Origin: Ruania zhangjianzhongii | Lineage (GTDB): Bacteria; Actinomycetota; Actinomycetes; Actinomycetales; Beutenbergiaceae | Reading direction: 5' to 3' | Length of the DNA: 64,000 nucleotides | Assembly (NCBI RefSeq): GCF_008000995.1 | Contig: NZ_CP042828.1 | Span: 3,152,882 to 3,216,881, forward strand | In this document: positions 47,005-53,601 of the stretch, piece by piece | How positions within the stretch are numbered: the stretch's first letter is position 1 | How the letters are laid out: each line of letters begins with the position of its first letter | The notes under the pieces: model-generated | Databases searched by the model: none | The model's input: only the letters and a program-made list of their open reading frames with translations | Told to the model about the DNA's origin: nothing | Program-made: the position numbers and the translations under genes

Positions 47005-47670
47005 TCAGTGCCCCCGGGCGATCCACTCCTGCAGATGCGGTTTCTCCGCCCCGATCGTGGTGGCGTCTCCGTGTCCGGTGAGTACCTCAGTGGCCTCCGG
47101 CAGGGTAAAGAGCTTCTCCCGGATGGAGGTGATGATCGTGGGGAAGTCGGAGTAGGAGCGGCCGGTCGCACCGGGTCCGCCCTGGAACAGGGTGTCCCCG
47201 GAGAACAACACTCCGCCTGCGCCGAGCCCGGGTGCCCAGAAGCACGTCGAGCCGGGCGAGTGCCCGGGAGTGTGCACGGCACGTAGCTCCACCCCACCGA
47301 GGGCGAAGGTGTCGCCGTCGGTGATCTGCCCGTCCGGCGTCGTGCCGGGGTAGACCTGCTCCCAGAGGAGCTGATCGGCCGGGTGCAGATGCACCGGCGC
47401 CCCCACCTGCTGCGCGACCTCGCCGACGGCACGGATGTGGTCATCGTGACCGTGGGTGAGCAAGATCGCCGTCACCTGCCGCCCGCCGACCGCCTGGGCG
47501 ATGGCAACCGGGTCGTGGGCCGGATCGATGACCAGGCACTCACTCTCGTCACCGACGATCCAGACGTTGTTGTCCACCTCCCACGTGCCCCCGTCCAGGG
47601 AGAACGTGCCGCTGGTGACCAGATGGGTCACCAGCACCTGGCCGGTGGCATCGCTGCGTTCGGCGCTCAT
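47005..47670 (-). CDS. Metallo-beta-lactamase-fold hydrolase, probable S-formylmycothiol hydrolase
   Basis: 221 aa. Metal motif THGHDDH (72-78), then [10 protein letters not shown] and GDTLF, and a final [11 protein letters not shown], typical of glyoxalase II-like enzymes. The start overlaps the stop of the mycothiol-dependent formaldehyde dehydrogenase (ATGA), and AGGAGG precedes it. The same pairing occurs in corynebacteria, where the hydrolase is thought to release formate from S-formylmycothiol. That function is inference here. Confidence 0.85.
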
Positions 47671-48797
47671 CGGGCACCTCCTGCTGAGACCGCGCCCGGG
47701 GCGGGGTTGATCTCCACCACCGAGCGGAGCACCTTCCCGGCCCTCATCTTCTCGAACGCGGGCTCGATGTCCTCGATCCCGATCCGCTCGGAGACGAACC
47801 CATCCAGATCCAGGCGCCCCAGCCGGTACTGCTCGACCAGCATCGGGAAGTCCCGCGAGGGCAGGCAGTCCCCGTACCACGCGGACTTGATCGCCCCACC
47901 CCGGCCGAACACCTCATCCAACGGGATCTCCCACGTGGTCCCCGGATCGGGCACCCCGACCAGTACCACCCGACCGGCCAGGTCCCGCGCCTCGAAGGCC
48001 TGTTTGAACGTGGCCGCGATACCGACGGCGTCGATCACCACATCCGCGCCGAAACCGCCAGTCAGCTCCTGGATCGCCGCCACCGGGTCCTGATCACCAG
48101 CGTTCACTGTGTGGGTGGCACCAAAACCCCGGGCAGTGGCGAGCTTCGCCTCATCCAGGTCCACCCCGATGATCGTGGTCGCTCCGGCCAACACCGCCCC
48201 GGCCACTGCCGCAGTACCGACTCCGCCGCAACCGAGCACCGCCACCGACTCCCCGCGCTGCACAGCGCCGGTATTGAGCACAGCACCGATACCGGCCATC
48301 ACCCCACAGCCGAGCAACCCGACCGCGGCGAACTGCTCAGGTGCGAGGTCGCCCTCGATCTTGGTGCACTGCCCGGCAGCCACCAGCGTCTTCTCCGCGA
48401 ATGCTCCGATGCCCAACGCCGGGGAGAGCTCGGTGCCATCGGTCAGGGTCATCTTCTGCGTGGCGTTGTGAGTGGCGAAGCAGTACCACGGCTGGCCCTT
48501 GCGGCAGGCTCGGCAATCCCCACACACCGCTCGCCAGTTCAAGATCACCCGGTCGCCGACCTCGACCTCGGTGACCCCCTCGCCCACAGCGGCCACCACA
48601 CCGGAGGCCTCATGACCGAGCAGAAACGGGAAGTCATCACCCACGCCACCCACCTGGTAGTGCAGGTCGGTCTGGCACACCCCGCAGGTGATCACCTCCA
48701 CCAGCGCCTCCCCCGGCCCCGGGTCGGGCACCAGAATCGTCTCTACAGTGGCGGGCTCGTTCTTCCCCTTCACCACAACAGCTCTGACCTCATGCAT
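47667..48797 (-). CDS. S-(hydroxymethyl)mycothiol dehydrogenase
   Basis: Zinc- and NAD-dependent oxidation of the formaldehyde-mycothiol adduct. 376 aa. Class III ADH-like: catalytic-Zn ligand Cys38 in [18 protein letters not shown] (61-68), the structural-Zn cluster [15 protein letters not shown], and Rossmann [15 protein letters not shown]. The stretch [36 protein letters not shown] region identifies the mycothiol (AdhE2/MscR) group. It is 84 nt downstream of a purine permease and the NdmCDE-like genes, whose reaction would produce formaldehyde. Confidence 0.92.
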
Positions 48798-48881
48798 GCC
48801 TACAGCTCTCCCTTCCAGTCGAAGTTCCTTGCGCCGGCCGGCGGATCGGACCGTGCGTATCGTGCACCCGAACCACTGACC

Positions 48882-52702: not shown

Positions 52703-52704
52703 CG

Positions 52705-53601
52705 TCAGACCGCCCCGGGAATGACGCCGTAACGGACACCGAGCTGTGACAGCATCCGTCGATAGGAGACGCCGGTCTTGTCCGCGCGGATCGGTGTTTC
52801 CGCACGCGGGTCGAGCGGGAGGCGCCGGGGCAGCTGATTCTCCAGGATGGGTTTGTCGTGGCCGAAGATGTCGACCTGAAACCGGCGCAACGCCCAGTCG
52901 GGACTGTCGTCGTCCAAGAGACAGAGCCACATATGCGCACGAATGTGCTCTTCGTCCAGCGGCTGGATGAACAACGCCACCGTGTCGAAGCGTTCCGGTT
53001 GCTTTGCGTTCGACTTGAAGAGCGCTGCGCAGTTCGGGTGCATCACCCGGTAGGCGTAGTCCACCTCGGCCCCCTCCGTGCTGTCCATCGCCGCTTGTGG
53101 CTGGTAGAACACACACTCCGTGGCCCAGATCTCGTGATCGGCCACCGAGGACGTGACCGTGTAGTCCTTGACCTCTGTGCGCGGCTCGTCGCCCAGGACA
53201 CCCGGATGGACGAAGGGGAAGTGCCCCATGTCGAGGAAGTTCTCCATACCGCGACCGGCCGACGTATGCACCATGATCGATCCCGCGTGCAACAGGCGGC
53301 GATCGGCCTCGTGTGCCTCGGGGATATCGAAAAGGTCCCTGGGCTCACCCAGCGAGGTCCACAGGTAGCTGAAGCGTTCCTGGACCGGGAGCTCCTCATC
53401 GGGTCGGTCCTTCCGGGTCGCTCGGAACGCGCCGCCCGCGGTCCGCTCGATCCGCAGCGGAACACCCAAGAGCTGGTCGTGCCATTCTCCGTGCGAGGGA
53501 AGCTGGGACAAGGCGCCGATCGGATGCCACAGGTCCAGCAGCACCCGATCCCGGCACTCGGCCGAGTTTCGGGCGTCAGAAAGCACAGCCAAGGAGTTCA
53601 T
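52705..53601 (-). CDS. Non-heme iron N-demethylase/oxygenase lacking a Rieske domain (NdmC-like)
   Basis: 298 aa. The catalytic Rieske-oxygenase domain is intact: bridging Asp124, iron ligands His127 and His132 in NFLDMGHFPFVHPG, and third ligand Asp249 in FGHDKPILENQ. The N-terminus still begins like a Rieske oxygenase (LWHPIGALSQLPSHGEWHDQ, then LLGVPLRI) but jumps from residue 60 to YLWTSLGEP at 80 with no CxH or CxxH: the cluster-binding insert is gone. The neighbouring reductase supplies a Rieske domain. This split is the hallmark of NdmC, the 7-methylxanthine N7-demethylase. ATG 53601 follows AAGGA. Confidence 0.85.
   Translation of the reverse strand: MNSLAVLSDARNSAECRDRVLLDLWHPIGALSQLPSHGEWHDQLLGVPLRIERTAGGAFRATRKDRPDEELPVQERFSYLWTSLGEPRDLFDIPEAHEADRRLLHAGSIMVHTSAGRGMENFLDMGHFPFVHPGVLGDEPRTEVKDYTVTSSVADHEIWATECVFYQPQAAMDSTEGAEVDYAYRVMHPNCAALFKSNAKQPERFDTVALFIQPLDEEHIRAHMWLCLLDDDSPDWALRRFQVDIFGHDKPILENQLPRRLPLDPRAETPIRADKTGVSYRRMLSQLGVRYGVIPGAV

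Follow-up and report, generated by a model that had tools for sequence, protein, structure and literature searches.

The closest described system to the locus studied here is NdmCDE, the N7-demethylase of 7-methylxanthine in Pseudomonas putida CBB5 and MT178. In CBB5, frmA and frmB flank ndmABCDE, and cafP is a putative permease (PMC4463537 and part of a 2015 review, PMC4408171). For ndmCDE homologs outside caffeine degraders, the sections of this review that treat them give the function as not known. The present locus lies in the window—a stretch of 64,000 nucleotides of Ruania zhangjianzhongii (contig NZ_CP042828.1, 3,152,882–3,216,881)—and features six co-directional genes on the minus strand at 47005–53601. 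They encode an oxygenase, a reductase, a glutathione S-transferase (GST)-like protein, an NCS2 permease, the mycothiol-dependent formaldehyde dehydrogenase MscR, and an MBL hydrolase; all six are present as the initial annotation had claimed. The first four form an ndmC-D-E-NCS2 cassette that, as judged from its sequence, probably N-demethylates a purine.

The cassette resembles the CBB5/MT178 type in its Rieske-less oxygenase, its reductase with an extra Rieske domain, its GST-like protein, and the permease and formaldehyde genes close by. It differs in sequence—the C, D, and E proteins are 43%, 37%, and 37% identical to those of MT178—and in forming a separate clade and bearing a candidate leader. 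In addition, the host has MscR where Pseudomonas has glutathione-dependent enzymes, and it lacks an NdmA/NdmB-like gene. The homologs of Sinorhizobium and Mesorhizobium share the C-D-E order, with an oxygenase approximately 50 to 54% identical and FrmA near some, but they often feature two oxygenase paralogs and a BMP-type ABC importer that replaces NCS2. Saccharopolyspora elongata, Pseudonocardia MH-G8, and Streptomyces B-S-A6 have the same oxygenase–reductase–GST–NCS2 order and an oxygenase 66% identical; the leader is common to the window and to the Saccharopolyspora and Streptomyces cassettes. However, MscR is not in the stretch read for these three, and all three loci carry similarity to OHCU decarboxylase. 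No description of this system by title or abstract opening was found among the matches listed from the open-access literature.

Architecture of the split oxygenase

The six genes are as follows.

52705–53601, minus strand: NdmC-like Rieske-less non-heme iron oxygenase, 298 residues, assigned by Pfam, tree, and ligands
50909–52702, minus strand: NdmD-like reductase of up to 597 residues, with an N-terminal Rieske domain, flavin and NAD domains, and a C-terminal 2Fe-2S ferredoxin
50237–50896, minus strand: NdmE-like GST homolog, 219 residues, 37% identical to NdmE of P. putida MT178
48882–50240, minus strand: NCS2 purine permease, 452 residues, 64 to 67% identical to OHCU decarboxylase-fused permeases of relatives
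47667–48797, minus strand: MscR, mycothiol-dependent formaldehyde dehydrogenase, resident
47005–47670, minus strand: MBL-fold hydrolase, partner of MscR and putative S-formylmycothiol hydrolase

The oxygenase has VanA_C as its sole Pfam domain (74.3 bits); neither a Rieske domain (Pfam) nor a C-x-H...C-x2-H motif is found in it. The 2-His-1-Asp iron site is kept as H129, H134, and D251, where residue numbers follow a 300-residue translation of 53607–52708 with Met as residue 3. The reductase carries Rieske, NAD-binding, and Fer2 domains (Pfam), the last a plant-type ferredoxin; its ligand motifs are CLH...CQYH (Rieske) and CEQGACGTC...C. A Rieske-less oxygenase with an iron site, a Rieske-bearing reductase, and an adjoining GST-like gene are all present, and the domains and ligands of these three genes bear out the NdmCDE-like architecture that had been proposed. 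PDB searches align the N-terminal part of the reductase with the Rieske half of intact Rieske oxygenases, including NdmA and NdmB, and the oxygenase with the catalytic half of those same proteins, which indicates one enzyme divided between two genes. MT178 NdmA as a query against the host genome likewise matches the oxygenase and the reductase separately. The AlphaFold model of the oxygenase (mean predicted local distance difference test 89.3) has a fold like that of intact Rieske oxygenases over most of its length, with query-normalized TM-scores to SxtT/GxtA and NdmA/NdmB of 0.67 to 0.80 among the matches listed.

Other arrangements occur in relatives. In Rhizobium brockwellii (L013:8345–10493), a free-standing Rieske protein, an NdmC-like oxygenase, and a GST are found, with no reductase within the stretch read—which may represent a third mode of enzyme splitting. 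On plasmid pPp1290 of P. putida 1290 (L140:12859–14614), the annotation divides the ndmD-like region into three genes.

Phylogeny and pocket residues

From a genome scan that gave at least 570 relatives, the best 80 are considered here. In a tree of 73 rows, a 100/99 branch separates all 54 Rieske-less oxygenases (45 of the 113 copies found in the 80 loci plus nine others) from the other 19 rows, which are NdmA/B-like, HpxD-like, other Rieske-bearing, and VanA-type; of the 14 VanA_C loci, three were left out, two because they lacked the motif and one because it exceeded 450 residues. NdmC of the MT178 plasmid pTmex-577K, used as the ortholog in place of CBB5 NdmC, falls in the Rieske-less clade. 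The MT178 cluster is a genuine caffeine cluster, because its NdmA matches the solved NdmA in the PDB (764.6 bits over 350 residues) and the ferredoxin of its NdmD matches 6icm_D (163.8 bits over 87 residues). The Ruania oxygenase groups with those of Saccharopolyspora, Pseudonocardia, and Streptomyces (100/99), away from the Pseudomonas branch. Grouping with aromatic O-demethylases had been named at the outset as the result that would speak against an NdmC-like enzyme; the tree places the oxygenase with NdmC instead (100/99), and a VanA-type O-demethylase is rejected because the protein does not cluster with the Rieske-bearing VanA_C proteins.

Gln244 and Phe248 of the oxygenase align with the two positions altered in the PDB entry "NdmA QL mutant," which are Asn/Phe in NdmA, Gln/Leu in NdmB-like rows, and Asn/Phe in HpxD. 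Gln244 is present in 44 of the 54 Rieske-less rows. Lys198 and Asp208 each occur in 54 of 54; Asp208 is found in none of the outgroup rows, Lys198 in two Rieske-bearing ones (Leptolyngbya and Mycetohabitans) and in 2 of 11 VanA-type ones. The Leptolyngbya copy, which is plasmid-borne (L142:3701–4675), is an oxygenase with its own Rieske motif, follows a BMP-type ABC transporter, and carries the Lys of the clade.

Three NdmC-like paralogs, two of them tandem, occupy approximately 8 kb of pSymA in Sinorhizobium meliloti 1021 (L010:9523–17606), and an ndmCDE-like cluster lies among insertion sequences on a Klebsiella pneumoniae plasmid (L012:6731–13385).

A four-gene cassette and its empty site

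The cassette is set into a neighborhood of resident genes.

48840–53861, minus strand: presence/absence block missing in the congener G018
46163–46720, minus strand: OHCU decarboxylase, resident urate pathway
45825–46163, minus strand: hydroxyisourate (HIU) hydrolase, resident
44879–45811, minus strand: urate oxidase, resident
43286–44845, minus strand: second NCS2 permease (NCS2b), resident
53896–54375, minus strand: peroxiredoxin, resident, upstream flank of the block
54372–56024, minus strand: malate synthase, resident, glyoxylate assimilation
56271–57665, plus strand: 8-oxoguanine deaminase, resident

Oxygenase and reductase genes are 2 nt apart and reductase and GST genes 12 nt, GST and NCS2 overlap by 4 nt, and MscR and MBL overlap by 4 nt; the widest gap, 84 nt, separates NCS2 from MscR and coincides with the boundary of the block absent from G018. 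In this congener, contig C125 runs from 8-oxoguanine deaminase, malate synthase, and peroxiredoxin at once into MscR, and contig C88 has MscR, MBL, OHCU decarboxylase, HIU hydrolase, urate oxidase, and NCS2b in order. The alignment breaks at window positions 53862 and 48839, with 5022 nt here—oxygenase, reductase, GST, and the first NCS2 permease—and none there. Since MscR and MBL stand at the same site without the cassette, the formaldehyde pair is resident and the conserved unit consists of four genes. The single six-gene unit of the initial annotation is accordingly rejected; the three nearest relatives also hold the first four genes, with no MscR within the 18.9 kb read. MscR occurs in 21 of the 24 family genomes (E ≤ 1e-90) and is followed by MBL in four others examined (G002, G016, G017, and G018). 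Its score of 609.8 bits, compared with the equivalog cut-off of 512.9 for TIGR03451, identifies it as MscR, and its gene is the sole place in the host genome above that cut-off. Together with the G+C content, MscR fits an actinobacterial host. The NCS2 permease of the cassette exceeds the cut-off of TIGR03173.

The oxygenase is present in 2 of the 24 family genomes. In the second, G016, it adjoins the same peroxiredoxin, its frame stops early, and MscR sits on a different contig. Reductase and GST were not found on the G016 oxygenase contig, where the permease is represented by its C-terminal end alone; the stretch after the broken oxygenase resembles what we take to be an IS3-type transposase. 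The GC content at third codon positions (GC3) of the four cassette genes is 0.76 to 0.86, compared with mostly 0.88 to 0.95 nearby. We favor acquisition here over loss in G018, because presence is patchy and GC3 is lower—although the GC3 of the resident OHCU decarboxylase (0.78) and MscR (0.83) is also low. Approximately 42 nt of G018-like sequence is retained upstream of MscR, so that MscR may now rely on the promoter of the cassette.

The malate synthase gene has a second matching stretch in the host genome (G000:C2:1442323–1443892) at 80% DNA identity.

Relatives and the link to formaldehyde

Counts over the 80 loci are lower bounds, many contigs being short, and are not independent, rhizobia being numerous. 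They are Rieske 75, reductase 70, GST 70, BMP-type importer 46, amidohydrolase 18, FrmA 12, xanthine dehydrogenase type 9, FghA 7 (counted without an identity filter and possibly including other esterases), OHCU decarboxylase 7, NdmA/B-like 6, SHMT 5, NCS2 4, HIU hydrolase 2, and MscR 1. A formaldehyde gene—FrmA, FghA, or MscR—is found in 14 of the 80, the 12 with FrmA being chiefly rhizobia. In S. meliloti 1021 pSymA, two adjacent oxygenases, a reductase, and a GST are followed by a class III alcohol dehydrogenase above the TIGR02818 cut-off. The MT178 cluster holds a class III alcohol dehydrogenase, NCS2, ndmCDE, and fghA together. In a metagenome-assembled genome titled Ferrithrix thermotolerans, MscR (638.2 bits), MBL, oxygenase, reductase, and GST follow one another closely; this is a second, distant version of the mycothiol arrangement.

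That import, demethylation, and formaldehyde disposal are linked had been thought new. This is rejected, because the MT178 cluster and that of CBB5, with frmA/frmB and the putative permease cafP, already combine all three; the FrmA-bearing loci of rhizobia and the Ferrithrix locus count against it as well. No relative was found in viral contigs by tblastn, and in a sample of the phylum one of 396 genomes matched at E ≤ 1e-40, namely, that of the host.

The leader upstream of the oxygenase

Two elements precede the oxygenase gene.

53626–53712, minus strand: conserved leader, candidate structured RNA, GGGAGTGA ... CTCCCG
53722–53738, no strand: perfect inverted repeat TTAGTT-N5-AACTAA, candidate operator immediately upstream of the leader

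The leader of approximately 90 nt is common to the window, G016, Saccharopolyspora, and Streptomyces, and its comparison rests on these four sequences. It features, in order, GGGAGTGA, TCCGTGGT, a GACC/CGGA block, and CTCCC. The distance from motif to ATG is 66, 61, and 62 nt in the window, Saccharopolyspora, and Streptomyces, giving frames 0, 1, and 2; the three differing frames speak against coding conservation. Without mismatches, the pattern occurs once in the host genome and in 0 of 393 other genomes of the class, and a plasmid search with the Streptomyces leader gave no match. A known Rfam riboswitch is rejected, since the covariance models match nowhere over 53626–53712; two subthreshold chance matches both lie upstream of it.

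For fragments that end at the motif, the best fold pairs GGGAG with CTCCC in each of the four sequences. Stem P1 was compared by eye and folding only, because the MAFFT alignment shifted its 3' arm by one column between the two groups. In stem P2, 36 of 36 cells are paired, with a single pair changed on both sides; 78 of 500 shuffles, however, equal it on paired cells and covariation. Further points weigh against a structured leader: The inner folds differ between the four sequences, longer fragments of the window and G016 leave GGGAG–CTCCC unclosed in their best folds, the folding z-scores are −0.65 (window), −0.89 (Saccharopolyspora), −2.37 (Streptomyces), and −0.62 (G016), and the motif was not found in Pseudonocardia L060, a member of the clade. 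The leader is a candidate structured RNA with weak statistical support. It has been considered whether 53712–53626 might be an undescribed riboswitch-type RNA that responds to a methylated purine, or to the product made from it, and regulates the cassette. The natural role of the cassette would be to salvage 7-methylguanine or 7-methylxanthine released by nucleic-acid turnover, not to break down caffeine, and its position would have brought the resident mycothiol formaldehyde pathway under the switch; this proposal is speculative and rather doubtful.

A different common leader precedes the NdmC-like gene in Nocardioides (L097:8890–8965) and Pseudonocardia dioxanivorans (L109:8890–8965). By eye, it forms a hairpin with a TTCTGCTGTGCCCG loop, in which CTGTGC might form a pseudoknot with GCACAG further downstream. 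Its stems differ by paired changes between the two, and the L097 version has no Rfam match.

Substrate, proposed mechanism, and alternatives

The purine setting claimed in the initial annotation is supported by the neighboring urate-pathway genes, and N-demethylation is plausible. In Streptomyces B-S-A6 and Nocardioides immobilis, the NCS2 permease is fused to OHCU decarboxylase (Pfam; L061:12180–14240 and L097:762–2726), and the Nocardioides locus carries xanthine dehydrogenase-type subunits in addition. Amidohydrolases were classified in 8 of the 18 loci that have them: three exceed a guanine deaminase cut-off (L066 and L096 for TIGR02967, L097 for NF006679), L130 is slightly under (360.4 compared with 375.4), L102 is an 8-oxoguanine deaminase, and three have no class. 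The fusions and the guanine deaminases near relatives point to purines of the methylxanthine or methylguanine type. The host genome encodes a xanthine dehydrogenase molybdenum subunit that shares 66% identity with its counterpart in the Nocardioides cluster. A search of this genome with NdmA gave the oxygenase, the reductase, and one Rieske match of 21.5 bits but no NdmA/NdmB-like gene, by which a complete caffeine pathway (ndmABCDE) is rejected. Together, the guanine deaminases, the molybdenum subunit, and the lack of an NdmA-like gene fit a route from mono-methylated guanine or xanthine via guanine or xanthine to urate. The most likely activity is removal of an N-methyl group from a methylxanthine or a methylguanine, the product of which would pass to xanthine dehydrogenase and the urate genes.

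In the proposed mechanism, the cassette, probably acquired, would encode a split Rieske oxygenase in which the reductase relays electrons from NADH, through its flavin, ferredoxin, and N-terminal Rieske center, to the mononuclear iron in the oxygenase, with the GST-like protein possibly holding the putative complex together. The complex would hydroxylate the N-methyl group of a purine imported by NCS2, and the product would split into purine and formaldehyde. The purine would enter the molybdenum xanthine dehydrogenase encoded elsewhere and then the adjoining urate–allantoin–glyoxylate genes; the resident MscR–MBL pair, with which the cassette may now be cotranscribed, would oxidize the formaldehyde via mycothiol. 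Likely substrates would be 7-methylxanthine or 7-methylguanine, which nucleic-acid turnover or plant alkaloids could supply.

Several observations weigh against purine N-demethylation with linked formaldehyde disposal. At 43% identity to NdmC, the substrate of the oxygenase may differ, and the host, without an NdmA/NdmB-like gene, does not have the full caffeine pathway. HpxD, an enzyme of purine oxidation, is a distant relative with Asn/Phe at both pocket positions. Among the 80 loci, 66 have no formaldehyde gene (many contigs are short), none has urate oxidase, and 46 have the BMP-type ABC importer in place of NCS2 (4 of 80). The formaldehyde pair is resident and not in the stretches of the nearest relatives, and G016, the sole other oxygenase carrier among the eight genomes of the genus, has a broken frame.

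The complex might instead hydroxylate a ring carbon of the purine and feed urate directly, as the molybdenum-independent HpxDE does on hypoxanthine and xanthine (part of PMC7373994). Such an enzyme is likewise a Rieske oxygenase in purine catabolism and would suit the urate-pathway setting, and the distant homology of HpxD, at 25 to 27% identity and with Asn/Phe at both pocket positions, lends it some support. HpxD, however, has its own Rieske motif and lies beyond the 100/99 branch, a second route would be superfluous next to the molybdenum xanthine dehydrogenase, and formaldehyde genes recur in relatives; ring hydroxylation is thus quite unlikely. An N-methyl group could also be removed from a non-purine heterocycle or another small N-methyl compound, with the purine setting as a handy nitrogen outlet. 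This would agree with the 2015 review, which in its relevant part (PMC4408171) assigns no function to homologs outside caffeine degraders, and with the prevalence of the BMP-type importer, but it is made unlikely by the NCS2 permease within the unit, OHCU decarboxylase-fused in relatives, and by the guanine deaminase or xanthine dehydrogenase-type genes in some of their loci. A cassette that is decaying or silent, a passenger placed by coincidence beside MscR and the urate genes, is very unlikely: The rarity of the oxygenase in the family, the broken G016 copy, and the lower GC3—shared in part by OHCU decarboxylase and MscR—would suit it, whereas four open reading frames, conserved catalytic ligands and leader, and the location among purine genes do not.

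Significance

New in this system are the actinobacterial clade, the empty site, and the conserved, frame-independent, Rfam-negative leader. The permease together with the OHCU decarboxylase, guanine deaminase, and xanthine dehydrogenase-type neighbors of relatives points to specific substrates that can be tested cheaply. The presence/absence site and a ligand-binding leader, if true, would make the physiological substrate directly measurable.

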